The translations under genes and the position numbers were made by a program. This document shows positions 1,040 to 27,894 of a stretch of DNA of 32,209 nucleotides, one piece after another (position 1 is the first letter of the stretch; each line of letters starts with the position of its first letter). The DNA lies in the NCBI GenBank assembly GCA_014304875.1, contig JACRUD010000145.1:1-32209 (forward strand), written 5' to 3'. The notes under the pieces were generated by a model. It did not search any database and was not told the origin of the DNA. It saw only the letters and a program-made list of their open reading frames with translations. Source of the DNA: Vulcanimicrobiota bacterium (GTDB lineage: Bacteria; Vulcanimicrobiota; Vulcanimicrobiia; Eremiobacterales; Eremiobacteraceae).

Positions 1040-1065
1040 ACGGACCTAAGGTCCGTGGTTACATT
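1040..1065 (-). repeat. REP-like palindrome R1
   Basis: Minus strand: AATGTAACCACGGACCTTAGGTCCGT; perfect 8-nt arms. Confidence 0.75.
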
Positions 1066-1078
1066 CCTTGGCTACGCT

Positions 1079-3742
1079 CTACGCGGCCGTCGCGCCGTGG
1101 CACTTTTTGAACTTCCTCCCAGAACCGCACGGGCACGGATCGTTGCGGCCGACCTTGCCGTTGGTTCGGCGCGCCGGTTCGGGGCCGCTCCCGTCCTCAC
1201 GATTGCTGTGCAGCTGGTCGAATCGGCGAGCGGCGGCCGGATCGAGCGGCAGAGCCTTGCCGGCGGTCTCAAACGGCGCGTCGGAAGGAGGCGCGAGCGT
1301 ATCTGGAGGCGGCCCCTGGACGACGATGTGGAAGTCGTCGCCGGCGAACATGGCCGCCAAGAACTCTTCCTGAATCGCGACCTTGAGGTCTTCAAAAAGC
1401 TCGAACGCCTCTTTTTCGTACTCGACGCGCGGGTCTTTTTGACCCCAGCCGCGCAATCCGATCCCCTGTTTCAGGCTGTCCATCGTGTACAGGTGGTCGA
1501 TCCACAGCCGATCCACGATCTGCAGCATGGTCCCGCGCTCCAGCATACGCAAACCTTCGCGCAGACCCGCTTCGTCCAGCTGCGAGTAGCGCGCTACCAT
1601 GCGGTCTTCTTTGTCGGAATACATGCGGTCGGCTTCAGTCGCCAGCAGTTCGACCATCTCGTCCTTAGAGAGCGGTTGCAGCCGATCGGCGGTAACGGGC
1701 TGCCCGATTCCACGCACCGACGTCTCCGTATCCGCGATGATCTGGTCGCGATCCCACTCTTGCGGGTGCGCGTTTTCGGGACAGTTGCCGTCAACTGCCT
1801 GTCTTGCTTTCCAGCGCACGATCTCGCTGATCGAGGGCCGCAGATCGTGGCCTTCAAGCACGCGCCGGCGTTCGCTATAGACGACCGTGCGCTGCTTGTT
1901 CATGACGTCGTCGTATTCCAGGACGTGCTTGCGGGCCTCGTAGTTGTGCGCTTCCACCTTCTTTTGCGCGCGCTCGATGCTGGCGGTGAGAATGCCCGCC
2001 TCGATCGGCGTGTCGTCGTCGATTTTGAAGCGCTCCATGATGTTCAAGATGCGCTCGCCGCCGAAGATGCGCATCAGTTCGTCATCGAGGCCGACGTAGA
2101 AGCGCGACGACCCCGGGTCGCCCTGCCGTCCGGAGCGGCCTCGCAGCTGGTTATCGATGCGTCTGGACTCGTGCCGCTCCGTTCCGATGATATGCAGGCC
2201 GCCGGCTTGGGTGACGCCCTCTCCGAGCTTGATGTCGACCCCGCGACCGGCCATATTCGTCGCGATGGTCACCCGCCCGGCCAGACCGGCATCTTTGATG
2301 ATCTGCGCTTCCTTCTCGTGGTACTTCGCGTTGAGGACTTGATGGTCGATGCCGCGCTTGGACAGCATGGCCGACAGCCGTTCCGATTTTTCGATCGATC
2401 GCGTTCCGACCAGAACCGGCTGCCCTTTTTGGTGCAGCTCTAAAATCTCGCCGATGACAGCACGGAATTTTCCCTCCTCGTTCTTGTAGACCATATCGTC
2501 GTAGTCTTTGCGCTTGACGGCGACGTTGGTGGGAACGGCGATGACGTCCAGCCGGTATATCTCGCGAAACTCGCGCTCCTCCGTCTTGGCCGTGCCCGTC
2601 ATGCCCGCCAGCTTTTTGTACAACCGGAAGTAGTTCTGAAACGTGATCGTGGCAAGCGTTTGGTCTTCGCTTTTGACCTTGATGCCTTCTTTTGCCTCGA
2701 TGGCCTGATGGATGCCGTCGGAATAGCGACGGCCGTACATCAAGCGGCCTGTGAACTCGTCGACGATGACGATTTCGCCGTCCTTGACGACGTATTGCTC
2801 GTCGAGGCGGAACAGCTCTTTGGCTTTGAGCGCGGCCTGCAATTGATGCGCCAGCTCCAGGTTGACCGGGTCGTACAGATTTTGGGTTCCGAGCAGGCGC
2901 TCGACCTTGGCGACTCCTTTTTCGGTGATCGGAACCGCGTGCATCTTCTCATCGACGGTATAGTCCTCGTCTTTGACGAGTTGAGGCATGATCGTGCGGG
3001 CGAATTTCTCATAGAGATGAGAAGCGTCTTCGTAGCGCGGTCCCAAAACCGCCTCGGGCCGGCCGCTGATGATGAGCGGCGTGCGGGCTTCGTCGACCAA
3101 GATGGAATCGACTTCGTCCACGATGGCGTAGTTCAACTGTCGCTGCACGCAGTAGTCGATGCTCGGCGCCATGTTGTCGCGCAGATAGTCGAACCCGACT
3201 TCGTTGTTTGTCACGTAGGTCACGTCGCTTGCGTACGCTGCATGGCGCTCGGCCGGCGCGAGAAAATGCTGGATGACGCCGACCGAAAGTCCGAGCGCAT
3301 TGTAGATCGGAGCCATCCACTCCGCGTCTCGCTTGGCGAGGTAGTCGTTGACGGTGACCAGGTGCACGCCTTTGCCTGCGAGCGCGTTGAGATACACCGG
3401 CAGCGTCGCGACGAGCGTCTTCCCTTCGCCCGTCCGCATCTCGGCGACTTTGCCCTCATGCAACACCATGCCGCCGATGAGCTGGACGTCAAACGGCCGC
3501 ATGTTCAGGGTCCGCTTGGCGATCTCGCGACAGGCGGCGAACGCCTCCGGCAGCAGCTCGTCCAACGTCGCCCCGCGAGCCAGCCGCTCGCGAAAATCCG
3601 GGGTTTTGGCGGCCAGCTCGGCGTCGCTGAGAGCCTGCATGCCGGACTCCAGCGCGTTGATACGCACCACGGTTCGGCGCAGGCGCGCGACCTCGCGGTC
3701 GTTGCCGTCGACCAGCGACTTGATCGAGTTCAGGAACGACAA
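1079..3742 (-). CDS. secA: Preprotein translocase ATPase SecA
   Basis: 887 aa; [55 protein letters not shown]-terminal SEC-C motif [14 protein letters not shown]. Confidence 0.98.
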
Positions 3743-3754
3743 ACTTCGAGAACC

Positions 3755-4084
3755 TTAGCGGGCGGCATCCGTCGCGGGAGCGTCGTTTGCGCGATGATGG
3801 CGTCCGATTTTCTTCGTCTTATACTTGCGGATTTGCTGCTCCAAACTGTCGCGCACCAGATCGACCGCGGCATGCATGGTCTGCGAGCGTTCCTCGGCTT
3901 TGATGAGATAGTGAGGCAGATTCAGCGTGACATCGACGATCTGTTCGCTTCTCTCCGTGCGCAGCGTCACGTGCGCGTCGATGATGCGTTCGAAATAGTG
4001 TGCCAGGTGACCGATCTTCTCTTCGATGTAGCCGTGCAGCGCATCGTTGACGGAAAAGTTCTTGCCTTTGATGAAAACTTGCAT
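3755..4084 (-). CDS. hpf: Ribosome hibernation promoting factor / RaiA family (short form)
   Basis: MQVFIKGKNFSVNDALHGYIEEKIGHLAHYFERIIDAHVTLRTERSEQIVDVTLNLPHYLIKAEERSQTMHAAVDLVRDSLEQQIRKYKTKK; start reassigned from the 4402 of the ORF track to 4084. Confidence 0.9.
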   Translation of the reverse strand: MQVFIKGKNFSVNDALHGYIEEKIGHLAHYFERIIDAHVTLRTERSEQIVDVTLNLPHYLIKAEERSQTMHAAVDLVRDSLEQQIRKYKTKKIGRHHRANDAPATDAAR

Positions 4085-4269
4085 GGAAGCGTTGCCTCGA
4101 AACGTGCCATCCGCACGGAATGCGCGGCCTTTGCGTGTTCCCGCATCCAAAGATGCGGTCCTGCCCAATAGATGAGCGCGGCGATCGCCGCCAAAACAAT
4201 GATCAAAATCACTATGCGCGCGACGATGTAGGGCCGCTGGGGGCGCGTCTTTATGATCTGTCTGCTCAT
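3967..4269 (-). CDS. Small single-TM protein, overlapping the 5' end of hpf out of frame
   Basis: ATG at 4269 preceded by GAGGGAGC; MSRQIIKTRPQRPYIVARIVILIIVLAAIAALIYWAGPHLWMREHAKAAH has one hydrophobic helix; the tail overlaps hpf by 118 nt. Confidence 0.4.
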   Translation of the reverse strand: MSRQIIKTRPQRPYIVARIVILIIVLAAIAALIYWAGPHLWMREHAKAAHSVRMARFEATLPCKFSSKARTFPSTMRCTATSKRRSVTWHTISNASSTRT

Positions 4270-4310
4270 GCTCCCTCGTTCGACGCACGCGGCGATAAAA
4301 TCCCGCGCCG

Positions 4311-5111
4311 TCAGCGCAGGGTGATGCGGACCGGATCGTTGATCGCGTCGATCGGCAACCGCCTCTGTAATTCGGACAGAGTGACAAACGTGAAACCGGC
4401 ACGGCGATACGCGCTCACGATGTCCGCAAGGGCCTGAATCGTGGGCTCCTTTCCGTTGTGCAGCAGTATCACCGCTGGTGAGCGCGCCTGCGCGACGACG
4501 CGGGTCACAACGTCGGCCGGCGTGACGGTTCGCCAGTCGCCGGCATCGACGTTCCAAAGCGCCACCGTTTCCCCAGCCGCCTTGGCGGCTTGCAGCGTCG
4601 CTTCGTCAAAATTCCCATGCGGCGGCCGAAAATACGTCGTCACCCGGCCGGTCACGCGGCGGATCGTCACCGCTCCATCGACGATCTCTTCGAGTTGCGC
4701 CGGGAAGGAAAGCGTCGACATCTCGGGATGGGTCAAGGTATGATTGCCCAGTTCCATGCCGGCTTGCGCTAAACGAAAAGCTATGTCTGGTTGCTCGCGT
4801 GCGTCGTCGCCGATGAGGAAAAAATCGGCGCTGACTGCGAGCCGTCGGAGGGTGGCCAGCAAAGCCGGCGTCGTGACCGGATAGGGTCCATCGTCGAACG
4901 TCAGCACGGCCAGGCGCTCGCGGCGCGGCGGCGTCAGCACGTCGGCGATGTCGCGCCTCATTCGGCTGGCCAGCTCTTGCGCCGGCGGATGCGCGATCGC
5001 GGCCGCATCCAGCGTCGCCGGCACGATGGCCGGCACCAGTTCCAGTTGAGCGTGATGCACCCAGCGGCGCATCTCGACGAACGACGCGAAGAGCATTAGG
5101 GTGACGACCAC
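4311..5111 (-). CDS. Polysaccharide deacetylase (NodB homology domain)
   Basis: LTFDDGPYPVTTPALLATL, ELGNHTLTHPEMSTLS, TTYFRPPHGNFD motifs. Confidence 0.93.
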   Translation of the reverse strand: MVVTLMLFASFVEMRRWVHHAQLELVPAIVPATLDAAAIAHPPAQELASRMRRDIADVLTPPRRERLAVLTFDDGPYPVTTPALLATLRRLAVSADFFLIGDDAREQPDIAFRLAQAGMELGNHTLTHPEMSTLSFPAQLEEIVDGAVTIRRVTGRVTTYFRPPHGNFDEATLQAAKAAGETVALWNVDAGDWRTVTPADVVTRVVAQARSPAVILLHNGKEPTIQALADIVSAYRRAGFTFVTLSELQRRLPIDAINDPVRITLR

Positions 5112-5145
5112 CAGGCGAACGGCACGCCGGCGGCCCGCGCCGCCG

Positions 5146-6432
5146 TTATTGGATGCGATAGTCCTGGCCGACCACGATATCGATGTCGCCGCCCTTTACG
5201 CGTCCGACGGAAAAGCGGACGTTATGCATGGGCAACCGTTTTGTTACCTCGCCGAGCAGAGTCGCGTTGACCCCGATCACGGTGGTTTGAGCATTGTTGA
5301 ACGTGCCGGCATTTCCCGTCCCCACGATAGTGAATCCGCGTTGGCGAAGATAGTCGGCCAGCGCAGAAGCCGCACCTGGCGTGCCGGAGCCGTTTTCGAC
5401 CTTGACGTGAACCGTCGACGGATCGAACCGGGAACCGAAACCCACGACGAGATACTTGCGCACCAGTTCGCCGGTTTGCGTCCGGTCCTCGTATAAGACC
5501 GATTGGCCGTCCGTCCAGCCCACGTCTGCGGGGACCTGCGCGCTATGCACCTTTTGCGGTGTGACCTCGCGCAGACCAGCCGCTAGATCGACCATCTTGT
5601 CCACCGGCATGTCGGATCGCGCGTTGGCCCGTACGACTTCGATCAGAGCCGGAACGCGCAGCGCGATCGCCGGACCCTGAAAACGTCGGACCAGCGTCTG
5701 GGTTATCTGCCGCTGGCGCCGCATGCGCCCCAAATCGCCTTCCTCATCGTGCCGGAAACGTATGTAGCCGACGGTCTGCTCGCCGTTTAAGTGCTGAAGC
5801 CCTTTCTTCAAATGGATGTGCAGGTGACCCCACGAGTCGTCGTAGTCCATGTCTTTTTCGACGTTGACCGCAAGACCGCCGATGGCGTCGACTATCTTTC
5901 TGGTCGCATCGATCTTCAGCACGAAGTAGTAGTCGAACGGCGGCGTCCCAAGAGTTTTTTCAACGGTCAGCTCGCTACGCTGCGGTCCGCCGCCCGAAAA
6001 GGCGCTGTTGATCTTGCCGAAACCACTTTTGGGGATATCGACCCACAGGTCGCGCGGGATCGATAGAATGCCGATGTCCTTGGTGTTCAGGTCGATGGAA
6101 ACGGCGAGCAGCGTATCGGTGCGCGCGCCGGCTGTGTACGACTCGTCCAGATCGTTCCAGTTATCATCGATCCCCATGACCAGAACGAGCAGCTTGTCTT
6201 TGCCGAATGCCTGCGGCAAGTTTCGCCCGACGACGAGCGGGATATCTGCCAGCACGTTTCGCCAGCCGCCGTTGGTCCCCAAAAGCGCGGCGCCGGCCGC
6301 AGCGGCCAGAACCAATGCGAGAGCGATGAGCAGCAGCGGCGCGCCGCTGCGTTTGCGCGCCGGGGGGCTTGGCAACACGATCGTATCCTCGCGATCGTCC
6401 GCCGGCCGCGCATCGTCGAAGGAACGCGGCAT
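5146..6432 (-). CDS. LytR-CpsA-Psr (LCP) family protein with C-terminal LytR_C domain
   Basis: N-terminal TM; DTLLAVSIDLNTKDIGILSIPRDLWVDIP, GLQHLNGEQTVGYIRFRHDEEGDLGRMRRQRQ; C-terminal VHVKVENGSGTPGAASALADYLRQRGF. Confidence 0.93.
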   Translation of the reverse strand: MPRSFDDARPADDREDTIVLPSPPARKRSGAPLLLIALALVLAAAAGAALLGTNGGWRNVLADIPLVVGRNLPQAFGKDKLLVLVMGIDDNWNDLDESYTAGARTDTLLAVSIDLNTKDIGILSIPRDLWVDIPKSGFGKINSAFSGGGPQRSELTVEKTLGTPPFDYYFVLKIDATRKIVDAIGGLAVNVEKDMDYDDSWGHLHIHLKKGLQHLNGEQTVGYIRFRHDEEGDLGRMRRQRQITQTLVRRFQGPAIALRVPALIEVVRANARSDMPVDKMVDLAAGLREVTPQKVHSAQVPADVGWTDGQSVLYEDRTQTGELVRKYLVVGFGSRFDPSTVHVKVENGSGTPGAASALADYLRQRGFTIVGTGNAGTFNNAQTTVIGVNATLLGEVTKRLPMHNVRFSVGRVKGGDIDIVVGQDYRIQ

Positions 6433-6433
6433 T

Positions 6434-6922
6434 CTAGCGGTAGTTCACGAATTGAACGGGGAAATCGAGCTCCATGCCGTTGATCAGGGCGATCGCTTTT
6501 TGCAGGTCATCCTTTGATTTGCCGGACACGCGCAGTTGTTCATCCTGGATCTGAGTGCTGACCTTGAGCTTGGCGGCTTTGATCCCTTCGGCGAGCTTCT
6601 TTGCCCGATCTTTCGCGATGCCTTGCTCCAACGTGATCTCCTGACGGATCGTGCCTTGAGCCGCCGGCTAGGCCTTGCCGTACTTCAGCGCCTTCAAGGA
6701 GACCCCGCGTTTCACGCATTTGCTCTGCAGGATGTCGACCAAGTTCTTCAATTTGAGTTCGTCATCCGCGATCATCGTGATCTGAAGCTCGCGCAGATCG
6801 AACGATGACTTCGAATTTTTAAAATCAAAACGGGTCGCGATCTCGCGCTTGGCTTGGTTGACTGCGTCCTCTAAGCTCTGCTTGTCTACGCGCGATACGA
6901 CGTCGAAAGAAAAATCACTCAT
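6434..6922 (-). pseudogene. yajQ: YajQ-family nucleotide-binding protein, interrupted by one in-frame TAG
   Basis: Two ORFs of the track (6668-6922 and 6434-6631) are in the same frame; joined: MSDFSFDVVSRVDKQSLEDAVNQAKREIATRFDFKNSKSSFDLRELQITMIADDELKLKNLVDILQSKCVKRGVSLKALKYGKA*PAAQGTIRQEITLEQGIAKDRAKKLAEGIKAAKLKVSTQIQDEQLRVSGKSKDDLQKAIALINGMELDFPVQFVNYR. Confidence 0.88.
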
Positions 6923-7679: not shown

Positions 7680-7821
7680 TTTGCGGCATTCATGACGATC
7701 GGCGCTGGTAAAGGAAATCGAAGAAGCAGCCGCCGGCAAACCGGATGGCCGGAAGGACTTTTGCCCGCGCGAGGCTAGTCCTTTAGTGATTATGACGTCC
7801 GCCGCCCCAAGCCCTGGAGTC

Positions 7822-8934
7822 ATGCCTTCGGTCGACGAGCGTGCGTTGGTTGCGGGCCGCGAAGTCGCAGCATTGAGCGGCGGCGTCGACAGCGCGGTCG
7901 CTGCGGCGCTCGCGGTGCGCGGCGGTCGCGACGCGGTGGGTATCACCATGCGGCTGTGGACCCCCGGTGACGGAGCGGCGAGCGACAAGGCGCGTCTGTG
8001 CTGTGGGCTAGAGGCCTATGAAGACGCGCGTCGGGCGGCCGGCGTGATCGGCATCCCGCACTACATCATCAACTTCGAGGCAGCCTTCGAGCAGGCGATC
8101 GTACGCTATTTCTGCACCGAATATTTGGCCGGGCGGACTCCCAACCCGTGCGTGGCTTGCAACAACCTCATGAAATTCGGCGCGTTGCTGGATTTTGCGC
8201 GCGCGCTCGGCGCTGCGCGCATCATCACCGGACACTACGCTCGGGTTCTTCAGGCACCCGACGGCCCGCGCCTTTTGCGTGCCGTGGACCGAGCCAAGGA
8301 CCAGTCCTATATGCTCGCCGGTCTGCGCGCCGATCAGCTCGCTTCCATGGTGCTGCCCCTGGGCTACTGGCCCAAGGAGCGCACCCGGCAACTCGCGCGC
8401 GATTTCGGTCTCGACATCGCCGAAAAGCGTGATTCGATGGACTTGTGCTTTGTCGACGGGGACTATCGCGGTTTCATCGCCCGACGCTTCCCAGAAAGCC
8501 AGGCCCCCGGGCCCGTGATGACGACAGACGGCCGCATCATCGGCCGCCACGACGGCCTGGTGGGTTTCACGGTCGGTCAGCGTAAAGGTGTGCCCGGCGA
8601 CGGCGACAACGGACCGCTCTACGTCGTTCGAACGGAAAGATCGACGAACTCGGTGATCGTCGGCAGGCGCGAGGAGCTCGCGCGAGAGTCGCTGTTATGC
8701 AGCTCGCCGAACCTCGTGCGCCCGCAGTCTTTCGCGGACGGGCGGCGGGTCAGCGGTCTTGCGGTGTGTCGCTACCGAAGCAAAGGAGTACCGGCGACCG
8801 CGCATCTGCAGGACTCCGATTCCCTTGCGGTGCGCCTCGAAGTCCCGACACCGGTGGCCCCTCCCGGCCAGTTGCTGGCGTTCTACGATGAAAAGGACGA
8901 GGAAGTGCTCGCGTCCGGGATCATAGAGCAGTAG
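7822..8934 (+). CDS. mnmA: tRNA-specific 2-thiouridylase MnmA
   Basis: AALSGGVDSAVAAAL PP-loop, TPNPCVACNNLMKFG, DLCFVDGDYRGF, TVGQRKG. Start could be 7792; 7822 has upstream GGAG. Confidence 0.95.
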   Translation: MPSVDERALVAGREVAALSGGVDSAVAAALAVRGGRDAVGITMRLWTPGDGAASDKARLCCGLEAYEDARRAAGVIGIPHYIINFEAAFEQAIVRYFCTEYLAGRTPNPCVACNNLMKFGALLDFARALGAARIITGHYARVLQAPDGPRLLRAVDRAKDQSYMLAGLRADQLASMVLPLGYWPKERTRQLARDFGLDIAEKRDSMDLCFVDGDYRGFIARRFPESQAPGPVMTTDGRIIGRHDGLVGFTVGQRKGVPGDGDNGPLYVVRTERSTNSVIVGRREELARESLLCSSPNLVRPQSFADGRRVSGLAVCRYRSKGVPATAHLQDSDSLAVRLEVPTPVAPPGQLLAFYDEKDEEVLASGIIEQ

Positions 8935-8972
8935 ACGGCAACCGATTGGCTTTCTCCCGCGTACTAGAGAAT

Positions 8973-10104: not shown

Positions 10105-10743
10105 ATGACTACGGCGCGCGGCCGGCGTTGGGTCGCCCCAGGCGCGCTGTTTTATCTGATCGCGACGATCGTTCTCTACGGCTGCGCCAAGCCGCCGGCG
10201 CCTGAGGGTTTTCGAGCGGGAGTCGCTCCCGGCGTTTCCCGCGCCAAAATCGTGCAGCTACTGGGGAAACCTTCGCAAGCGGGCGGCGTCGGCGTTTCGG
10301 GCACGCCGCCGACCGATTTGATGGCGTATCCGTTCGGACAGATACTGCTCCAAAAAGGGCGCGCCGTTGCGGTCACGATCGCTAGCGATGCAAGTTACGT
10401 CGGGCCCTACGGCATAAAGCTCGGCATGGCGGAAGATAAAGTAAAAGCCGCTCTCGCCGCGCATCGAAAGCCTCGCCAAGGCCACATGTCGTCCTATACG
10501 GTGACGGCGGGCACGATGGACACGCGCTCGCGCGATCTCTACGATGTCACGGACGGTTTGGTGATCGAGATGGCGGCTGCAAACGCGATCGACCCGCTGG
10601 CTTCCTTTAACGTCGTAAGCATCAGTCTCGTGAATCCCGACGGCGCGCGCCTCCTCAGCGGTATGACGAAAGCCAAACTGACCGGTCTCAACGCTTCCGA
10701 GCACGTCTACAATTTCGTGGACGAGCCGTGGTCGACGCGATGA
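10105..10743 (+). CDS. Putative lipoprotein with two SmpA/OmlA-like repeats
   Basis: N-terminal hydrophobic segment with lipobox-like LYGC; GVAPGVSRAKIVQLLGKP and GIKLGMAEDKVKAAL repeats. Start placed at ATG 10105. Confidence 0.6.
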   Translation: MTTARGRRWVAPGALFYLIATIVLYGCAKPPAPEGFRAGVAPGVSRAKIVQLLGKPSQAGGVGVSGTPPTDLMAYPFGQILLQKGRAVAVTIASDASYVGPYGIKLGMAEDKVKAALAAHRKPRQGHMSSYTVTAGTMDTRSRDLYDVTDGLVIEMAAANAIDPLASFNVVSISLVNPDGARLLSGMTKAKLTGLNASEHVYNFVDEPWSTR

Positions 10744-11342
10744 GCGACGGCGATCTAAGCGCCCCGGACGAATTCAGCATCGAGCTGCCCCCCAACTCCC
10801 GAATACGCGCTCTGAAGTTCGAGATGGAGAAGGACGTTCTGCATGTGTTCTTTGACGACGACGGTGCGGAGCGCGTTCTCAAGCCCGCTGACCTGCTGGC
10901 ACTGCACGGCGGCTACATCCGCAGCGAAACACTGACGCGCACCCCCACGAAGTCCTCGTCCAAGCCTTCCTTCGGCAGTCTCGGAATGATGGCGATGACC
11001 GGGATGCCCATCAACCCGGGCAAAGTCGTCGATAAGATCATTTCGAAAGACCAAGTGCATCTGTCCGAGGAGTTTCATTTCGTCTTGGGTTTGCGCGTAG
11101 CGCGCACGCCCGCGCTCTGGTACTTGCGGGCATCATCGTTCAATTTCCGCACGGCGCTTGGGCCTGAAGCGACCTACTCGACGGAGATAAACTGCCGCCA
11201 GCTCGTGCGCCGTTTATGCGGGTTTGCGCCCGACGCCGTGCGCGACAACTTCATCACCGCGTATTCCCAGCGGCTGCCGCTGCCGCCCGCGTTGAACGGC
11301 CTGATCGAATTCCTTCGAGTCGCTTCCGGAGCGCGTCTATAG
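10740..11342 (+). CDS. Conserved-looking hypothetical protein
   Basis: ATGA overlap with the upstream stop (10740-10743), codon usage consistent; no family recognised. Confidence 0.7.
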   Translation: MSDGDLSAPDEFSIELPPNSRIRALKFEMEKDVLHVFFDDDGAERVLKPADLLALHGGYIRSETLTRTPTKSSSKPSFGSLGMMAMTGMPINPGKVVDKIISKDQVHLSEEFHFVLGLRVARTPALWYLRASSFNFRTALGPEATYSTEINCRQLVRRLCGFAPDAVRDNFITAYSQRLPLPPALNGLIEFLRVASGARL

Positions 11343-11371
11343 GCGCGGACCTTAGGTCCGTCCGTCGCGCC
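11340..11371 (+). repeat. REP-like palindrome R2
   Basis: TAGGCGCGGACCTTAGGTCCGTCCGTCGCGCC between convergent stop codons. Confidence 0.75.
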
Positions 11372-12474
11372 TACGCCGGCGTCGCGAGCGGGTAATCCCG
11401 CTTTTGGAAATACGTATCGCGTACGGCGGGCACGTATCCGGCTTGGCGGATCGTCCGTTCGAGATCGGCTCGCGAGGCGCTGTTCGTATTGCCGGCTAGC
11501 GTCACGACTTTTTCTTCCAAGATCGTCCCGCCCATATCGTCCGCTCCGAAAAGCAACGCCAGCTGCCCCAGTTTCATGCCGGGCGTCAGCCATGACGACT
11601 GGATGTGCGCGAAGTTATCCAGGTACAGCCGGCTGATCGCGATGACGCGCAGATAATCGAGGCCCGTCGTCTCCTTGCCTTTGAGCGGCGTCTTGTACGG
11701 GACGTAGTACCAAGGGATGAAAGCCGTAAAACCGCCCGTCTCGTCCTGCAGCTCGCGCAGGACGTCGAGGTGTTTGATACGCTCTTCGTCGGTTTCGATA
11801 GAGCCGAACATCATCGTCGCGGTGGTCGGCATCCCGAGTCGTTGCGCGACCCGCATGACGTCGAGCCAGCGGTCGTTGTCGATCTTGCGGGCGGAAATGC
11901 GACGCCGCACCCGCTCGACGAGGATCTCGGCTCCGGCGCCGGGGAGCGACTTTAGACCGGCCGCGCGCAGCGTGGTCAGCACGTCCTCGATCGGCATGCG
12001 CTCGCGCTTTGCGATGCCGCAGATCTCGCTCGTGGACAGCGAGTGGATGTCCACATCGGGGAACTCGCGTGCGATGCGCTCGAACAAATCGACGTAGTAG
12101 GTCAGCGGCAGGTCGGGATTGACACCGCCTTGGATCATGATCTGGGTGGCGCCCTGATCCACCGACCACTTCACGCGCGCAAGGACATCGTCGTGCGTCA
12201 TCGTGTAGCCTTCGGGATGGCCTTCCGGTCGGAAGAACGCGCAGAACGAGCAATGAACATTGCAGACGTTCGTATAGTTTATGGTGGTGTCGATGACGTA
12301 CGATACTTCAGGCCCCGGAAACAGGTCGCTTCGGCGACGATGGGCGGCTTGCCCGATGTCGTGCAGAGAGGCCTCTCTGTAGAGCCGCACGCCATCCTGA
12401 TAGCTCAAGCGGCGGCCGGCGGCCGAGCTCTCCAGCAGAGCGGCGATCTCAGACACGTTCGTACGCCTCTTCAA
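11371..12474 (-). CDS. mqnC: Cyclic dehypoxanthinyl futalosine synthase (radical SAM, MqnC)
   Basis: Radical SAM motif NYTNVCNVHCSFCAFFRPEGHPEGYTMT; adjacent to mqnA and mqnE. Confidence 0.92.
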   Translation of the reverse strand: MKRRTNVSEIAALLESSAAGRRLSYQDGVRLYREASLHDIGQAAHRRRSDLFPGPEVSYVIDTTINYTNVCNVHCSFCAFFRPEGHPEGYTMTHDDVLARVKWSVDQGATQIMIQGGVNPDLPLTYYVDLFERIAREFPDVDIHSLSTSEICGIAKRERMPIEDVLTTLRAAGLKSLPGAGAEILVERVRRRISARKIDNDRWLDVMRVAQRLGMPTTATMMFGSIETDEERIKHLDVLRELQDETGGFTAFIPWYYVPYKTPLKGKETTGLDYLRVIAISRLYLDNFAHIQSSWLTPGMKLGQLALLFGADDMGGTILEEKVVTLAGNTNSASRADLERTIRQAGYVPAVRDTYFQKRDYPLATPA

Positions 12475-13297
12475 GAAATGCCAACGCTGGGCGGCTCTCC
12501 AGCACGCCGCAGCGCTCGGCCAATTCGTAAAACGCTTCCAGTCCGGCGCGTGCCGTCTCGTCCAAGCTGAAATTTAGCTTGCGATAATAGTCCGCGTAAA
12601 AGCCGGCCGTCCGGGGCAGCAAGGCTTGCGCTCGCGGAACGACCTCGTCGTCTAGGTGCGCGATTCCCCAGTGAAGTGAGTCGAGCAAGGCGGCGTTGAC
12701 TTGCGCTACCGTCGCCGGGTGCTCTTCCGCGAAACGACGCCTTACCGCCCACACCGCGTAGACCATCGGATGGCCGGTCGATTCCCGCCACATTGACCCT
12801 AAGTCGTAGACCTGCTCGCTGGGAGCGCGCCCAGCCGCCTCGACGGCAGCGTCCCCGATCAGCACGCGCGCATGCCCGTAAGTCTTACCGTCCGGTTCGT
12901 CCGCGATATAACGCGGCGCGAAACCGTAACGCGTCCGGCAAAGAACATCGAAAAGCGCGCGGCCCGTCGCCGACTCCGCCGTCACGCACACGCCTTGGCC
13001 GGCCAGGCGCTCCAGCGGCAGCGCCGAGATGCAAAGCACGCTGAGAACGGCGCCCTGCGATGCCACGCACAATCCCGGCAAAAGCCTCAGGTCGTCCGGA
13101 TGTGCGGCGTAGTAGATCGAAGAAACCGGGCTGCAATCCAACTCGGCGCCGAGCAGCATGCGGTTCAGCTGCGCCGGAACTCCGCGGACGAGGCGGCCGG
13201 GAAAACTCCGGGCGCCGGCATCGAAGGCGGCGTAGACCGGCAACACGTTGGTATAGCTGATGCGGCCGCAACGCGCGTTCTCCGGCATGGACGTCAC
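12449..13297 (-). CDS. mqnA: Chorismate dehydratase MqnA
   Basis: RISYTNVLPVYAAFD, GVPAQLNRMLLGAELDCSPVSSIYYAAHPDDLRLLPGLCVASQGAVLSVL; overlaps both neighbours. Confidence 0.9.
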   Translation of the reverse strand: MTSMPENARCGRISYTNVLPVYAAFDAGARSFPGRLVRGVPAQLNRMLLGAELDCSPVSSIYYAAHPDDLRLLPGLCVASQGAVLSVLCISALPLERLAGQGVCVTAESATGRALFDVLCRTRYGFAPRYIADEPDGKTYGHARVLIGDAAVEAAGRAPSEQVYDLGSMWRESTGHPMVYAVWAVRRRFAEEHPATVAQVNAALLDSLHWGIAHLDDEVVPRAQALLPRTAGFYADYYRKLNFSLDETARAGLEAFYELAERCGVLESRPALAFLEEAYERV

Positions 13298-14439
13298 GCC
13301 GGTTCCATGACCGCGTAGAGCAAGTTACGCCGAGTCGGCTCGAAGCCCGCCTCTTTGATGGCGCGTTTCAGCTCCTGCGCCGGCGTGCTTTGATCGGTGG
13401 TGCTGCCGGCTTCGCGGTAGATGCGCTGCTCGTTATCGACGGTGCCGTCGATGTCGTCAGCGCCGAAATGGAGTCCTAACTGCGCCAGCTTGATCCCGTA
13501 CGAAATCCAATATGCTTTGATGTGATCGATGTTATCGAGCATGAGCCGCGATACCGCAATCGTCCGCAGGTCATCGATTCCGCCGGTCCAGCCATACTCT
13601 TCGAGGTCGTTTCCCTCGGGATGGAACGCCAGCGGGACGAAGCACTTGAAACCGCCCGTCTCGGCTTGGAGCTCGCGCAATAGCGCCAAGTGCTCGACTC
13701 GCTCCTCGATCGTCTCGACGTGTCCGTAGAGCATCGTGCAGTTCGTTTTAATGCCAAGCCGGTGAGCGACCCGGTGGACTTCAAGCCATTCCTCGGCGGA
13801 TGCTTTGCGCGGACAGACGAGTTTGCGCACGCGTGCCACCAGGATTTCGGCACCGCCGCCGTTGAGCGACGTCAAGCCGGCGTCGCGCAGCAGCCGCAAG
13901 CCTTCTTCGTACGTGCAGCGCGCCCGCTTGCACATATAGTCGATCTCCGCTGCCGTGAACAGAGCGAGTTGCACGTGCGGAACTCGGCGGTGCAGCTCCT
14001 CGATGACGGGAATCCAGTACTCCAGGCTGGTCTGTTTGGGATCGTGGCCGCCGACGATATGCAACTCGTCGTAATCGGCCGGCTCCGCGCAGGCGCGGGC
14101 TACGATATCGCCCGCGGTCATCCGGTAGGAACGCGCCTCTTTTTCATGCGCGGCAAACGAGCAAAATTTGCAGCCTGCATAGCAGATGTTGGTCGTGTTG
14201 AGGTAGCGCTTGAACACGTAGTAGGCGCGATTGCCGTTTTTCTCGGTGCGGACTTGGTGCGCGAGCTTGCCGAGAGCGTGAAACGGCGCTTCGGTGTAGA
14301 GATACACGCCGTCGGCGCGGCCGAGCGGCTCGCCGGAGCGCACCTTCCGGCTGATGGCTTCGAACGCGGGGGCGCCGTTCATGAGGCCATCCGCCTTCGG
14401 CGATGCGTCGTGCGCCGCCTGGCCCTCAACCAGCGCCAA
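13294..14439 (-). CDS. mqnE: Aminofutalosine synthase (radical SAM, MqnE)
   Basis: YLNTTNICYAGCKFCSFAAHEKEARSYRMT; four-base overlap with mqnA. Confidence 0.92.
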   Translation of the reverse strand: MALVEGQAAHDASPKADGLMNGAPAFEAISRKVRSGEPLGRADGVYLYTEAPFHALGKLAHQVRTEKNGNRAYYVFKRYLNTTNICYAGCKFCSFAAHEKEARSYRMTAGDIVARACAEPADYDELHIVGGHDPKQTSLEYWIPVIEELHRRVPHVQLALFTAAEIDYMCKRARCTYEEGLRLLRDAGLTSLNGGGAEILVARVRKLVCPRKASAEEWLEVHRVAHRLGIKTNCTMLYGHVETIEERVEHLALLRELQAETGGFKCFVPLAFHPEGNDLEEYGWTGGIDDLRTIAVSRLMLDNIDHIKAYWISYGIKLAQLGLHFGADDIDGTVDNEQRIYREAGSTTDQSTPAQELKRAIKEAGFEPTRRNLLYAVMEPA

Positions 14440-14470: not shown

Positions 14471-14491
14471 ACCGAGCTAAGGCAGCCGGCA

Positions 14492-14518
14492 CGGACGGAC
14501 CTGAAGGTCCGCGGCTAC
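14492..14518 (-). repeat. REP-like palindrome R4
   Basis: Minus strand: GTAGCCGCGGACCTTCAGGTCCGTCCG. Confidence 0.75.
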
Positions 14519-14547
14519 CTTACCCGACGCGGCCGATCGCGGCTGCA

Positions 14548-16815: not shown

Positions 16816-16889
16816 CTGTTTGCCAACTGACGTACGGGCGTTCGATGACAGCGAAAATCCGCCTGCGCCACGACGGTGTGAGATGCTTA

Positions 16890-16918
16890 TGTATCCAGGG
16901 ACCTTTAGGTCCGTCCGC
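16890..16918 (+). repeat. REP-like palindrome R5
   Basis: TGTATCCAGGGACCTTTAGGTCCGTCCGC. Confidence 0.7.
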
Positions 16919-16933
16919 TGCTGACGCCGGTCG

Positions 16934-18664: not shown

Positions 18665-18730
18665 GGGTAATTAGACTTAAGGCGGGGTGCGCGCATGGCC
18701 TGCTCGGTTTAGTGGCGGCATCGTCCGAAC

Positions 18731-18758
18731 CGACGGACCTGAAGGTCGGCGGCTACAT
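18731..18758 (-). repeat. REP-like palindrome R6
   Basis: Minus strand: ATGTAGCCGCCGACCTTCAGGTCCGTCG. Confidence 0.72.
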
Positions 18759-18764
18759 TACGCT

Positions 18765-19434: not shown

Positions 19435-19464
19435 TTGACAACGGGCGGACCTTCGATATATCAT
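19435..19464 (+). promoter_or_regulatory. Sigma70-like promoter for the GntR/export operon
   Basis: TTGACA (19435-19440), then TATATC (19457-19462) or TATCAT (19459-19464). Confidence 0.6.
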
Positions 19465-19468
19465 ACGC

Positions 19469-19490
19469 TTGTCTTAAATGCCTAAGACAA
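19469..19490. promoter_or_regulatory. Perfect inverted repeat TTGTCTTA-AATGCC-TAAGACAA, probable GntR operator
   Basis: 8-nt perfect arms, 6-nt spacer, just downstream of the promoter -10 and upstream of the GntR gene. Confidence 0.7.
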
Positions 19491-19550
19491 TAGGACAGCC
19501 CAACGGCCACCGCAAGGGAACTGAACTTTCGGCTCGAGCCCGCCACGAAG

Positions 19551-19895: not shown

Positions 19896-19950
19896 CGATA
19901 AAGACGCTCGTTAACTTTGGAGCACAGCCGCTTGACGGAGGTTTGAAACG

Positions 19951-21698: not shown

Positions 21699-23106
21699 CT
21701 CCTCCATGCCGCGTTTTTGGTCGCTTGTCGCCGCAGTCGCGACTGCGCTCGCGGTTGCGGCGCCGGCCCTGGCCGACGGCTCCGCCCAGTCGCCTAGCCC
21801 GCTAAGCTTAGCGCAGGCGGTCGACTTCGCGCTGGCACACAACGCTTCGGTCCTGCAAGCCCAAGCGCAGGTCGCTTCCGCCGGTTCGGTTCTGGCGCGC
21901 GACCGCTCGCTGGAGCTGCCGCTCATCGCAGGCCAAGCGCAATCGGTCTTGGACCGCCAAAGCGCGAACAACGCGGGAAGCCTGGCGCAGTTCGGGCTGC
22001 GCCCCAGCCCGAACTTTTCCCAAAACACCGCGCAACTGCTCGGGTCGCAAAACGTCTTGAACTTGACCGACACGCTGCAGGCGAAGCAAGCCAAGCACGC
22101 CTACGACTCCACCGTCGAGAACCTGCGTCTCGCGCGCGAGCAAGTCACCTTGAACGTCGACTCGGGGTACTATGCGCTCGTCCAAAACTCCAACATCGCC
22201 GCCCTAGACCGGAGCGACGAGCTGTACCAGCGTGCGCTGCTGCAGATCGCTCAGGCGAATTTCAAAGCCGGCAGAGTCGCCGGCATCGACACGCTTAAAG
22301 CGCAAGTCCAGCTCACGACGGCGCAGGAACGGCACGCGTCCGCACTCGCTGACGTCGCTGATGCCGGAGAAAACCTTGGGCAGGTGATCGGAGCGCCTCC
22401 GGGCACGAGTTTCATCATCGCCGCGACCGTGCCGCAGCCCGAGCCGAAGACCACGGATCTGGCCGTCTTGCGCGCAACCGCATTGGCCAATCGACCTGAA
22501 GTGGCGATCGCCGGAGCCAACCTGCAAAATGCGCTGCTGTCGAACGGCTTGGTCGATGCTCCGAACCTGCCCAGCGTGGCCTTAAACGGCGGTTACGGCA
22601 ACCAAGTGTCCCCAACCACCAACGCCGCGTTCGTCGATCAATGCATCGCGTCGAACAACAATCCGAACCGCCCGCCGACGATCCCGATCCAAAACTGCTC
22701 GCCCGGCACATCCCACTTCTACAATATCGGGCTGACGTCGACATGGACGCTGCCGATCGTCGATTGGGGGGCGACGCACGCCGCCCATCGCAGCGCGTAC
22801 TCAGCGATCGACCAGCAGCGGGCGGCTTTGGATCTGGCGCGCAACCAAACCACCGTCGATGTCGACCAAGCCGTGCGCCGGCTTCAGGTCGATAAGGAAA
22901 ACGTCGGTTTGGCGCAGGCCAACGCTCGTTTGGCCAAACAAGCCGCCGATATCGCGCAGGTGCAGTACCGATTGGGCGTCATCAGCCAAGTCGACGTCAC
23001 ATCGGCCGAGCAGAGCTACCAGCAGGCCGCTCGCGATCTGCTGGCTGCGCAAGTCGGCTACGCGCTCGCCGTCGACAAAGTCGAATTGGCCACGGGGTCC
23101 TTGTAG
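21676..23106 (+). CDS. TolC-family outer membrane efflux protein
   Basis: Signal peptide; LSLAQAVDFALAHNASVLQAQAQVASAGS; internal duplicated coiled-coil region ending in YQQAARDLLAAQVGYALAVDKVELATG. Confidence 0.92.
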   Translation: MPLLSRASSSMPRFWSLVAAVATALAVAAPALADGSAQSPSPLSLAQAVDFALAHNASVLQAQAQVASAGSVLARDRSLELPLIAGQAQSVLDRQSANNAGSLAQFGLRPSPNFSQNTAQLLGSQNVLNLTDTLQAKQAKHAYDSTVENLRLAREQVTLNVDSGYYALVQNSNIAALDRSDELYQRALLQIAQANFKAGRVAGIDTLKAQVQLTTAQERHASALADVADAGENLGQVIGAPPGTSFIIAATVPQPEPKTTDLAVLRATALANRPEVAIAGANLQNALLSNGLVDAPNLPSVALNGGYGNQVSPTTNAAFVDQCIASNNNPNRPPTIPIQNCSPGTSHFYNIGLTSTWTLPIVDWGATHAAHRSAYSAIDQQRAALDLARNQTTVDVDQAVRRLQVDKENVGLAQANARLAKQAADIAQVQYRLGVISQVDVTSAEQSYQQAARDLLAAQVGYALAVDKVELATGSL

Positions 23107-23108
23107 AG

Positions 23109-24668
23109 ATGCCTAAGTGGGCGATCGCCGGCCTGATCGCCGCCGGAATCGCGCTTGTGGTCATTATCGGCGTCGGATCTCACCGCAGCAACGGCGACGT
23201 GGCCGTCACAGCGATCACCGTCAGGCCGGTTATCTTGATCACGAAGCTGCCGGAAAACGGAGTCGTCGATCTGCCGCAGACGGCGACCATCGCCGCCCAG
23301 ACGGCAGGCAGCGTCGTCAGCATCGAAGCGCGCGGCGGCGAACGGGTGCGCAGGGGTCAGCTTCTCATGAAGTTGGACGATCGCGCGATCTCGGCCAAAC
23401 TCAGCGCCGACGACGCCTCCTTGGCGCAAGCGGCCGCGGCGCTGCGCAAAGCCCAGCAGACCGCCGCAACCGCCGGGGACACCAGTGCGCAGACGGTCGC
23501 GCAAGCACAACAGACGCTGCTGGCGGCGCAGGCGCAGCTGCAGTCCGACGTCAACGGCAAGCGCGAAGGGCAAATCTCCGGCTCAATCTCAGGGGTCGGA
23601 TCGCTGGGAGTCAGCGGCCGGGCGCAGATGGTCCAGCTACAGCAGCAGGTGGAGAGCGCCGATTCGAATCTGCGCACCGCGAAAGAGACGTACGACTCCG
23701 ATCGTCAGCTTTTCAAGATAAACGCGCTTGCCCGCCAGCAACTAGACCGGGACCGCGCCCTGTACGAACAGGCACAGGCGACGAGCGTGTCCGTTCACCA
23801 GCAGTACGATCTGACGGCCCAGCAGTTGCGCGACAACGCGGGGCAACTCGGCAGCCGCATCGAGGCCGACCGCCACGCCGTCGAAAGCGCCCAAGCCGCC
23901 CTGGCCGGCGCCCAGGTGCAGTCCCACCAGGACAAGACGGTGGATGTGGGCTCGGCCGAAGCGGGCGTCGCGTCGGCGCAAGCCCAACGCCAATATGACG
24001 CCCAGCAGTTGGCCGACACCGAAGTGCGGGCGCCCTTTGACGGAGTCATTCAAACTCTCGGCACCGCGCCGTCTGGCTCGGGCACCGCGGCTGCTGCCTT
24101 AGCCGTCGGAGACTCCGTCACCGCAGGGCAGAGCCTTTATACCATTGCGGGGGCCGGCGCCATGGTCGTCAAGGCGCAAGTCGACGAACAAGATATCTTC
24201 GGTGTCAAAATAGGTCAGCATGCTCTGGTCAGCGGCGAAGACTTTCCAGGCTACACTTTAGTGGGAACCGTCACCGCCATCGCGCCGGTCGTGGTCGCGC
24301 AAAGCCAGGGCGGCAATGCGGCCAAGAACGTCGAGACGACCATCGCGCTTTCAAAGCGCTACCCATTTTTGCGTGACGGCATGTCGTGCGATGTCGACAT
24401 CATCACGGGCAAAGCCGTGCGAGCGCTGACCGTGCCGCAGACCGCCGTTCTCGGTGACCGGAACAAGCGCTACGTTTTCGTCGTCCGCGCAGGTATCGCT
24501 CGCAAAACTTCGGTGCGGGAGGGTTTGCGCAACGACACCGACGTCGCCATCACGTCCGGCCTGCGCTCGGGCGACGTGGTCGCGGTCGGCGACGTGAAGG
24601 CGATCAAGGACGGCGTTAAAGTCCATGCAACGGCTGCATCGCCGGCTCCAGCTGCTTCTGCGTCGTGA
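23109..24668 (+). CDS. HlyD/RND-type periplasmic adaptor subunit
   Basis: N-terminal TM, biotinyl-lipoyl-like GSVVSIEARGGERVRRGQLLMKLDD, long Gln/Ala-rich coiled coil, VRAPFDGVIQTLG. Confidence 0.92.
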   Translation: MPKWAIAGLIAAGIALVVIIGVGSHRSNGDVAVTAITVRPVILITKLPENGVVDLPQTATIAAQTAGSVVSIEARGGERVRRGQLLMKLDDRAISAKLSADDASLAQAAAALRKAQQTAATAGDTSAQTVAQAQQTLLAAQAQLQSDVNGKREGQISGSISGVGSLGVSGRAQMVQLQQQVESADSNLRTAKETYDSDRQLFKINALARQQLDRDRALYEQAQATSVSVHQQYDLTAQQLRDNAGQLGSRIEADRHAVESAQAALAGAQVQSHQDKTVDVGSAEAGVASAQAQRQYDAQQLADTEVRAPFDGVIQTLGTAPSGSGTAAAALAVGDSVTAGQSLYTIAGAGAMVVKAQVDEQDIFGVKIGQHALVSGEDFPGYTLVGTVTAIAPVVVAQSQGGNAAKNVETTIALSKRYPFLRDGMSCDVDIITGKAVRALTVPQTAVLGDRNKRYVFVVRAGIARKTSVREGLRNDTDVAITSGLRSGDVVAVGDVKAIKDGVKVHATAASPAPAASAS

Positions 24669-25864
24669 AGCTGGGCGGGTTTTTCGCCTCTGCCGTCGAC
24701 ACGTTGTGGGCGAACCGCATGCGTTCGCTGCTGACGATGATCGGCATCGTCATCGGCACGGCGGCGGTCATCGCGATTTTAGGCATCGGCCAGAGCGCTT
24801 CGAGTTCCATCGGAGCGACGTTGGGCTCTTTCGGCAATCAAGGCGTCATCATCATGCCGGAGCAGGGTTCGCGCCGCGTCGGGCAAGCGCAAATCCAATG
24901 GAGCGACGTCCAAGTGCTGCGCGACGATTGCTCGCCCTGCGGCCACGTGCTGCCGTTTTACGACAGCTATTATTTCATCCGCCATGGCCATACCAAAGAT
25001 GCTTTCGAGCTGGCATCCGACTCAGACTACGTCGTCGACACGCTGGCGATGGCCGAAGGACGCCGCTTCAACTCGGACGACGTCAACGGGGCGCGCCCCG
25101 TGTGCGATCTTCTGTCGGGTGCCAAACAGAAACTCTTCGGCGACGCGCCAGCGTTGGGGAAGTACGTGCGCATCGCCGGCCGCCGTTTTCTGGTCGTCGG
25201 AGTCTTCGCTCCGGCCAGCGCCGGGATCGTGGGCGCGGTCGGCGGCGGGAGCGACAGCATCAACATCCCTTACACCACCTATCACAAGCTGCCCGACACG
25301 GTCATCTTGGGAATACAAGTGTACCCGGCGGCCGGTGCGACGGCCGCTGAGGTGACGGACGAAACGCAGGCGATCCTGCGCCGGCTGCACGGCACCCGCG
25401 TGAAGTATCAGTCCATCGACATCACGCAGCAGGAGACCGTGTTCTTAAACGTCATCAAGTACGTCTCGATCGGGGTCTCCGCCATCGGCGCGATCGCACT
25501 GGTCGTCGGCGGCATCGGCGTCATGAACATCATGCTTGTGTCGGTCATAGAGCGGACCCGCGAGATCGGCATCCGCAAGGCGATCGGAGCGTCGCGCGGC
25601 GATATTTTGCTACAGTTTCTGATCGAGGCGGTGACGATAGCGTTGATAGGCGGTGTGGTCGGCGGTCTGGTAGGGGCCGGCGCCGCCGTCGCCGCGAGCG
25701 CGGTGCTCGTCAAGCAGCTCGCGGGGTCGGTCGCCGCCATTCATTGGCTGTCGATCGTCACGATCGCCCTCGGGACGTCGCTTGCGATCGGGATCTTCTT
25801 CGGTACGTATCCCGCGTTGCGTGCGGCGCGCTTATCCCCCATCGAATGCTTGCGCCATGAGTGA
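24665..25864 (+). CDS. MacB/FtsX-type ABC transporter permease 1
   Basis: [83 protein letters not shown]. Confidence 0.95.
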   Translation: MKLGGFFASAVDTLWANRMRSLLTMIGIVIGTAAVIAILGIGQSASSSIGATLGSFGNQGVIIMPEQGSRRVGQAQIQWSDVQVLRDDCSPCGHVLPFYDSYYFIRHGHTKDAFELASDSDYVVDTLAMAEGRRFNSDDVNGARPVCDLLSGAKQKLFGDAPALGKYVRIAGRRFLVVGVFAPASAGIVGAVGGGSDSINIPYTTYHKLPDTVILGIQVYPAAGATAAEVTDETQAILRRLHGTRVKYQSIDITQQETVFLNVIKYVSIGVSAIGAIALVVGGIGVMNIMLVSVIERTREIGIRKAIGASRGDILLQFLIEAVTIALIGGVVGGLVGAGAAVAASAVLVKQLAGSVAAIHWLSIVTIALGTSLAIGIFFGTYPALRAARLSPIECLRHE

Positions 25865-25870
25865 AGCCGC

Positions 25871-25900
25871 ATGTAGCCACGGACCGTTAGGTCCGTCCCC
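25871..25900 (+). repeat. REP-like palindrome R7
   Basis: ATGTAGCCACGGACCGTTAGGTCCGTCCCC. Confidence 0.75.
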
Positions 25901-25915
25901 CGCGGCCGTGACGAC

Positions 25916-27124
25916 ATGAATAAGATCGCCGAGCTGTGCGGCCAAGCCTTCGACCTCTTCTGGAACAACAAGCTGCGCTCGCTGCTCACCATGCTTGGGC
26001 TCATCATCGGGGTCGGGTCGGTCATCGCGATCATGGCCGTCGGCGACGCGACCAATAAGTCCGTTCAGCATTTGCTTTCGCCCTACTCCCTGGCGTCGAG
26101 CTACATCGCGCCCAAACCCGACCAGCCGGATCCCGAGACCGCCCAAATCCGCTTTGAGGATGCTCGCCGGGTCGCTCGAATGGTACCGGCCGCTGCGAGC
26201 GTGCAGCCGATCCTATCCTTGCCGATGGAGACGCGCGTTCAGCACACGGACAAGACGATTTTGGTCTTCACGGCCGGCGAGGGAGTCGGTTTCGATTCCA
26301 CCCCGTTGTCGGATGGCCGCCGCTTCACGCAACAGGATTTAAGCGCCCATAGGCGGGTGTGCATCATCTCGGCCAACACGCGCGACGAGTTGTTCGGCGC
26401 GGGCGCGCCGGCGCTTGGCAGGACGATCCGGCTGGATGGCAGTTCCTTCACTGTGGTGGGCGTGCAAGCGCCGCCCCAAAGCGCCGGGCTGTTGCAGACC
26501 AACGCCGGCTCGCCGACGGCTTCCATTCCCTACTCGCTGGCGCCGGCGCTCGGCTACCGCTACGTGAACGCGCTCGCGGTAGTCGCGAGCGGTCCGGACG
26601 TCGTCACCCAGACGGGCGACGCAGCCATCGCCGCATTGAAAAAGATCCATGGCCAGCGCTCTCAGTACCAAGAGCGCGATATAAAAACGCTTGACGAGGG
26701 TATCGCCAAGACCTTCGCGGTGCTCACCGGCGTGATCGGCATCGTCGCCGGCATCTCGCTTCTGGTCGGAGGTGTGGGCATCATGAACATCATGCTGGTC
26801 TCGGTCACCGAACGCACCAGAGAGATTGGCCTGCGCAAAGCCATCGGAGCCAAGAGATCGGACATCCTGGCGCAATTTCTGATCGAAGCGCTGCTTTTAT
26901 GCTGCATCGGGGGAATCATCGGCCTAGCCGGCGGGGTCGGCTTGGCGGAGCTCGTGATCCATTTACTGATCGTCAAGCTGACGGGCGCCATCGTTTCGTT
27001 CGCGTGGCTGCCGATCGTGTCGGTCGCCGTCATATTTTCGGTCGGCGTCGGCATCCTCTTCGGCACGTATCCAGCCGTCCGGGCGTCCTATCTAGACCCG
27101 ATCGAAGCCCTGCGCTATGAGTGA
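25916..27124 (+). CDS. MacB/FtsX-type ABC transporter permease 2
   Basis: [82 protein letters not shown]. Confidence 0.95.
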
Positions 27125-27818
27125 CGTCATCGAGATCACTGCGATGACCAAGATCTACGAGATCGGCGACATTAAAGTGGAAGCGCTGCGCGGGGTCACT
27201 TTTACGATCCAGCGCGGCGAGTACGTCGCCATCATGGGGCCGTCGGGCTCGGGAAAATCGACGCTGATGAACCTCATCGGCTGTCTAGACAAGCCGACGA
27301 GCGGGCTTTATCGGCTGGACGGAGTCGATGTCGAAGCGCTGGCGGACGACCAGCTCGCCGCCCTGCGGCTGCGCAAACTTGGGTTTGTTTTTCAAGGGTT
27401 CAACTTACTCGCCCGGACCTCGGCCGTCCGCAACGTTGGTCTTCCGCTTTTCTACGCCGGGGATCGCGACCGTGATGCCAAGGCTGCAGCGATGCTCAAA
27501 CTCGTGGGTTTGGGGGACCGCTTGGACCACCGGCCGAACGAACTATCCGGCGGCCAGCAGCAGCGCGTGGCCATCGCGCGGGCCTTGGTGAATGACCCGG
27601 CCTTGCTCTTGGCCGACGAACCGACAGGTAATCTCGATTCCATCACGGCGGAAGAATTGATGGCGCTGTTCGCCCGCGTCAACGAACAGGGACGGACGAT
27701 CATCATGGTGACGCACGATGAGAACGTCGCGCGTCACGCCCGCCGCATCATCCGCTTGCGCGACGGCCTCATCGTCAGCGATGACCAGGTGGCGGGCCGC
27801 GTCGCGTCGCCGATGTAG
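27117..27818 (+). CDS. ABC transporter ATPase (LolD/MacB type)
   Basis: [25 protein letters not shown] Walker [34 protein letters not shown]. Confidence 0.97.
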
Positions 27819-27845
27819 CGCCGCGATACTTTAGGTCGCCGGCGG
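27813..27845 (+). repeat. REP-like palindrome R8 (degenerate)
   Basis: ATGTAGCGCCGCGATACTTTAGGTCGCCGGCGG; its TAG is the stop codon of the ABC ATPase. Confidence 0.55.
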
Positions 27846-27862
27846 CCGCATCGTCCGGACCA

Positions 27863-27894
27863 ATGTACCGCCGCGGCTTTAGTCGCGGCCCGTC
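27863..27894 (+). repeat. REP-like palindrome R9
   Basis: ATGTACCGCCGCGGCTTTAGTCGCGGCCCGTC. Confidence 0.6.

Follow-up and report, generated by a model that had tools for sequence, protein, structure and literature searches.

Repetitive extragenic palindromic (REP) sequences tagged with GTAG are a known component of bacterial genomes, and REPtrons, bacterial interspersed mosaic elements (BIMEs), repeat-specific REP-associated tyrosine transposases (RAYTs) and the co-evolution of these enzymes with their repeats are already described (PMC2817692, PMC3733652, PMC8266576, PMC6006769). In the systems of PMC3733652 and PMC2817692, the GTAG lies outside a 6-9 bp stem with a short loop, the units are extragenic and of high copy number, they form dimers and clusters, the RAYT gene sits between inverted REPs, and RAYT and REP vary together between species. 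Here we examine nine short hairpins in a 32,209-nucleotide stretch of DNA from a Vulcanimicrobiota bacterium (GCA_014304875.1, contig JACRUD010000145.1; hereafter the window), all of the above features recurring in its genome or in those of its relatives. The hairpins are very likely GTAG-superfamily REPs of a REPtron/BIME system, with a RAYT as their likely mobilizer. A first-pass annotation of the sequence had already read them as REP elements moved by a RAYT, and this is supported by their genome-wide enrichment, the covariation of their stems, a repeat-flanked RAYT gene of the Y1 class in the same genome and intact REP-flanked homologs in relatives. The system is of a known kind; its novelty lies in the host family, which is in Candidatus Eremiobacterota (Vulcanimicrobiota) and unlike the hosts of the described GTAG REPtrons, and in the comparative set that this family provides. 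Searching the literature for the phylum in combination with REP or RAYT returned nothing relevant. The result extends a complete REP/RAYT system to a family without cultured members, in a phylum from which we found none reported earlier.

The window is contig C127 of the genome (G000; 2.49 Mb in 211 contigs, 93% complete), and its RNase J is 72-77% identical to RNase J of several metagenome-assembled genomes of Candidatus Eremiobacterota, a group that NCBI now places in Vulcanimicrobiota. A covariance model built from 77 copies of this genome, some of them from the window, and searched against the window with filters off gives exactly nine matches at E<0.01; these are the nine elements of the first-pass annotation, each within a few bases of where it had been placed. 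The next match, at 8034-8068, has an E of 0.043. Since the model was partly trained on the window, gap-free profiles built from 123 copies lying elsewhere were also run against the window. Six of the elements reach 26-43 bits, against a maximum of 11.7 across 40 shuffles of the window; the other three (1040, 11340 and 27813) are degenerate, owing to loop shortening (TTA in place of TTTA in the first two), loss of the head or interruption of the stem. Rfam at gathering thresholds has no match in the window. The elements, named in the text by the starts first reported for them, and one half copy are as follows, with their arm types A, B or C:

1040..1065, minus strand (model match 1035-1066): degenerate type A REP with head GTAAC and loop TTA, 3' of secA; 25.7 bits
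11335..11371, plus strand (model match 11335-11366): degenerate type A REP with head TATAGG, the GTAG being lost, and loop TTA, in the gap of the convergent genes 10728-11342(+) and 11371-12456(-); 21.3 bits
14438..14470, plus strand: type B REP, tail to tail with the type A copy at 14492, GTAG heads outward
14490..14522, minus strand: type A REP, the other member of the A/B dimer, between ftsK and a radical SAM (MqnC/CofH-like) gene at 13294-14439
16887..16919, plus strand: type A REP between the RNase J gene and ftsK
18708..18719, plus strand: half type C copy, GCCGCCACTAAA when read on the minus strand, a decayed partner of the A copy 18731; read directly from the sequence
18728..18760, minus strand: type A REP upstream of the RNase J gene
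25869..25901, plus strand: type A REP between two co-directional MacB-type permease genes
27811..27850, plus strand: type C REP whose stem is interrupted, at the 3' end of the ABC ATPase gene 27117-27818; 17.9 bits
27861..27893, plus strand: type C REP in tandem with the copy 27811..27850

The elements do lie at gene boundaries, as first noted, but they do not constitute one family with a single consensus: there are at least three arm types, which share the GTAG head and the tip CTTYAG. Type A, with the arms ACGGACC-TTYA-GGTCCGT, accounts for six of the nine (1040, 11340, 14492, 16890, 18731 and 25871), type B (GGCGCGAC-TTYA-GTCGCGCC) for 14442, and type C (GCCGCSRC-TTYA-GYSGCGGC) for 27813 and 27863. 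The unit measures 25-33 nucleotides and consists of a GTAG[C/T] head, one or two spacer bases and a near-perfect hairpin of 7-8 bp with the tip C-TTYA-G. The (A)TGTAG[C/T], the C-G pair that closes the loop and the loop TTYA make up the constant parts, and the arms are type-dependent yet paired. The loop varies mainly at its third base, which is the position reported to be dispensable in the Marinomonas TTTA-loop REP (PMC8266576). Across 128 copies the four head positions outside the stem are conserved at 95% (G), 98% (T), 95% (A) and 95% (G), head similarity having been used in part to pick the copies; in the window, the unpaired tetranucleotide at one end of the hairpin is missing from element 11340. 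The stem, 86.7% of whose cells are paired, is kept as a structure within a palindrome of the 20-40 bp seen in the superfamily: its covariation score is 0.511, against 0.163 for shuffles and at most 0.175 with the partners slid, a score that partly reflects the difference between two families and is not to be counted as many independent events. The proposal that the arms vary together holds within type C, where the pairs GCGGC/GTCGC, GCGAC/GTCGC, GCCGC/GTGGC and GCCAC/GTGGC change in step, and part of the variation first observed is simply the difference between types. A looser pattern, GTAGC-N(2,9)-CTTYAG, matches as often in a reversed control (83 versus 84) and was used solely to read arm variants.

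Across the whole genome, the hairpins number roughly 150 or more. Type A (GTAGCCNCGGACCTTNAGGTCCG, with three mismatches at most) occurs 77 times, split 41 to 36 between the strands, against none in the reversed control; the type C pattern occurs 85 times against once; the covariance model recovers at least 147 copies; and a 1.02 Mb sample holds 142 elements (72 A, 64 C and 6 B) against two in a second-order shuffle. The enrichment expected of REPs is therefore present genome-wide. Context was read in the same sample, taken in stretches, using a home-made gene caller. Just one of 138 good copies falls inside a called gene, though 86.5% of the sequence is coding—the extragenic, high-copy habit of REPs. 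The clusters comprise 46 in co-directional, 40 in convergent and 9 in divergent gaps, against 46.8, 19.3 and 28.8 expected (p about 2e-8), convergent gaps being over-represented and divergent ones under-represented. This bias toward 3' ends and toward gaps between convergent genes (40 of 95 clusters versus 19 expected), along with the strong stems, could also be produced by intrinsic terminators or mRNA-stabilizing 3' structures of local or selected origin that are not mobile, and roles of this kind are hypothesized for REPs elsewhere (PMC3733652). However, TTTT follows within 12 nucleotides in only 1 of 138 copies, and the hairpins are therefore not ordinary intrinsic terminators. Such structures would also not account for a GTAG head outside the stem that is 90-100% conserved, nor for copies of one type that are near-identical at unrelated genes, dimers with common spacers and RAYT flanks in several genomes. 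We consider a terminator or 3'-structure origin very improbable.

Single copies are the most frequent form, with 66 of 99 clusters, and about one third of the clusters contain two or more copies. The A/C pairs are mainly either tail to tail (A+C-), with 32-37 nucleotides between centers and often the spacer GACGACGG, or head to head at 43-63 nucleotides, and two clusters read A+C-A+. The window itself has the B/A pair 14442/14492 and, in the A copy 18731 with its half C copy, the remnant of an A/C dimer. Though most copies are single, the opposed REPs with a common spacer display a mosaic architecture that is that of BIMEs and of REPINs (REP doublets forming hairpins), here with unlike partners. 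As in the E. coli BIMEs, with their Y and Z palindromic units and the rayt yafM (PMC2817692), at least two REP types alternate with spacers and the RAYT is flanked by two types; in E. coli the stem is bulged and the RAYT is of group 2, whereas here the stems are near-perfect and a stop codon interrupts the local RAYT. With the Pseudomonas REPINs (PMC3116915) they share inverted pairs whose heads point outward, possible dispersal units, but most pairs here join unlike types (A with C or B), and singlets prevail.

A Y1 transposase gene flanked by the same repeats, the partner that the first-pass annotation had proposed to look for, is found once in the genome. This RAYT gene has the layout C+ B+ rayt B- C-, with inverted REPs whose heads point outward; its flanks are of types B and C and include no type A, and its reading frame is broken by one in-frame TAG where relatives mostly have W or Y. 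The TAG is either a true nonsense codon or a sequencing error, and the homologs in relatives are open. A profile search of the genome to E 10 gave this one gene, with no second RAYT or remnant for type A. All 15 enzymes (the genome's own and 14 homologs from nine relatives) match NCBIfam REP_Tyr_transpos, and the best PDB match is 4er8, the E. coli TnpA_REP (E 8e-14), which settles the fold. They are about 150 residues long and conserve DHxH, WQ and the NP-motif tyrosine (YxxxNP), i.e., the HxH and catalytic tyrosine of a Y1 HUH enzyme of RAYT rather than IS200 type. Judged by motifs and length against the table in PMC6006769, the RAYTs of the family appear to resemble group 3 / subclass 2.5, of which the Marinomonas REPtron Mb (PMC8266576, PMC6006769) is an example with the same length and motifs. 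Its REP likewise has the GTAG one or two nucleotides from the stem and a TTTA loop with a free third position; unlike it, the stems here are 7-8 bp rather than 5, and several arm types occur in one genome.

The enzyme shares its Y1 superfamily (Pfam PF01797) with the transposases of IS200/IS605 insertion sequences, and an IS200-type TnpA is present in another family of the class, which raises the alternative that the hairpins are decayed ends of such autonomous elements. Yet the match to REP_Tyr_transpos extends to 15 of 15 enzymes, which are single-copy or a few diverged paralogs; the repeats exceed them in number about a hundredfold; and the IS200-type genes examined in two genomes, G017 and G018, are without such flanks. 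An IS200/IS605 origin is, in our estimate, extremely unlikely. The IS200-type Y1 genes of those two genomes were set aside as not RAYTs.

The comparison covers 13 further genomes of the family, none of them from the same genus. In six relatives, at least ten intact RAYTs have inverted hairpins on both sides, heads outward, with arms mostly specific to the RAYT lineage; the REPtron layout is hence found in the relatives as well as in the genome itself. Two RAYT genes of G009 have atypical flanks. The enzymes are concentrated in the host family (10 of 14 genomes versus 10 of 135 others of the phylum, the latter mostly sub-threshold matches), and their tree is poorly resolved outside one genus, g4. 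The arm types counted follow the enzymes, and those tested are limited to few genera: GGTCGAG arms number 497 in G003, 324 in G010 and none in the 12 other family genomes, being limited to the two genomes whose RAYTs carry them, and the type C pattern is confined to G000 and G005, both with RAYTs bearing C or a C-like type. In the four family genomes that lack a RAYT (G004, G006, G011 and G013), the covariance model, which covers only the arm types of G000, has 0, 0, 1 and 0 matches. REP abundance thus corresponds to the presence of a cognate rayt across genomes, with the exception of type A (77 copies in G000, 86 in G005 and 21 of a variant in G007), which has no cognate RAYT in either of its two main hosts.

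This exception is what favors the view that type A is no RAYT substrate but a structured repeat of unrelated origin, for instance a signal for protein binding or DNA uptake, that coexists with true B and C REPs; G005 is rich in type A, as is G000. On the other hand, the head, the spacing and the CTTYAG tip are common to A, B and C, type A forms dimers with B and C, and an intact RAYT in G007 (L136) has at its flanks a hairpin closely resembling type A, GTAGCGGCGGACCTTTAGGTCCGCC. We therefore hold a separate origin of type A to be very unlikely. As a further observation, G005, with its single RAYT, has at least two additional hairpin types, GTAGCGTTCCGAGCGAAGCTCGG and one with GGAGC/GCTCC arms, mostly head to tail (e.g., L216:14394-14530 and L217:7695-7810). 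Elsewhere in the phylum, a genome of another family (G051) has twelve RAYT-like matches in 5.6 Mb.

Genus g4 provides a lead on what the enzymes recognize. It has two paralogous RAYTs, each common to two species (L131 and L140 in G003; L133 and L134 in G010). Their REPs have identical arms, GGTCGAG/CTCGACC, one with GTAG and the tip CTTYAG and the other with GGAG and the tip ATTYAT. Head and loop are linked in 74 of 79 copies in 456 kb (26/1 versus 4/48; Fisher p about 1e-15, the copies not being independent). The two enzymes have diverged in head and loop and not in arms, which suggests that specificity resides in the former. Similarly, in-vitro selection placed the specificity of group 3 REPs in the loops. 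We tentatively propose, at somewhat less than an even chance, that the RAYT of this family reads head and loop rather than stem, that one enzyme can carry several arm families, and that RAYT duplicates switch head and loop together while the arms are kept. If true, the g4 pair would be a natural head/loop swap that locates REP specificity.

Two boundaries occupied in the window have orthologs free of elements in most relatives, as mobility would have it. The window has the B/A pair in a gap of 108 bp separating ftsK from the radical SAM gene. In seven of nine relatives these genes overlap or are 6-47 bp apart with no element, and in the remaining two the boundary has REPs of their own types. 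Upstream of the RNase J gene, relatives have 41-79 bp without an element, except for G005, which has two REPs of its own types. Therefore, the same boundaries have been entered by different REP types in different genera. The gap between RNase J and ftsK (window 16816-16933) differs in another respect: it is 119 bp with a REP here versus 956-1980 bp in nine relatives, the intervening DNA being gone.

In the mechanism that we regard as most likely, the REP would fold when its strand is single, for example at replication, and the RAYT, as a Y1 HUH nuclease related to the TnpA of IS200/IS605, would recognize head and loop and cut beside the REP. It would then move or copy the REP, or a dimer, to a new and mostly 3'-intergenic site; single-strand processing and the link to replication are our inference, as is mobilization itself, and the hairpins have probably been copied by their partner RAYT. 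The genome's own RAYT and its flanking copies (C+ B+ RAYT B- C-) form a REPtron, which was presumably active in the past. As this RAYT now has a nonsense codon (or a sequencing error), the REPs are probably being lost by mutation. Type A, the most decayed of the types in this genome, may be an older family whose own RAYT was lost or is unassembled, or it may also have been moved by the B/C RAYT.

Repeat homogeneity fits a model in which a working RAYT keeps its repeats uniform and they decay without one, a correlation over three genomes. Exact copies make up 74 of 91 in G003 and 37 of 43 of the cognate type (C) in G005, where the RAYT is intact, versus 8 of 60 for type A in G000 and 14 of 35 for type A in G005, where no cognate RAYT is known; type C in G000 is intermediate (32 of 70, on a more permissive pattern). 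Several points weigh against a mobile REP system. These fractions rest on patterns unequal in length and degeneracy, the gene calls behind the context statistics are crude, and the 1.02 Mb sample was partly picked for copy-holding contigs. No transposition between close strains is seen, the relatives all being from other genera. The genome's only RAYT lacks an intact frame, no RAYT flanked by type A is found in G000 or in the 97% complete G005 despite the many copies in both, and two RAYTs of relatives, G002:C26 (at a contig end) and G001:C115, are without a clear REP on both sides. Nevertheless, we retain the REPtron/BIME reading at the strength given at the outset. Its value lies in the comparison it permits: some twelve diverged RAYT/REP pairs within a single family, among them a recent duplication with a head and loop switch, make RAYT recognition testable. 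A genome whose RAYT has a stop codon and whose repeats have diverged can also be set against relatives in which the RAYTs are intact and the repeats near-identical, a natural before-and-after series of decay.

Apart from the REPs, the window has two tandem operators at 31174-31200 and 31263-31289 that are like the controlling inverted repeat of chaperone expression (CIRCE), TTAGCACTC-N9-GAGTGCTAA, with two and one mismatches (0.01 expected by chance). They are located upstream of a gene at 31473 for a trypsin-like (DegP/HtrA-type) protease, and HrcA-type heat-shock control of this protease is a possibility worth a look.

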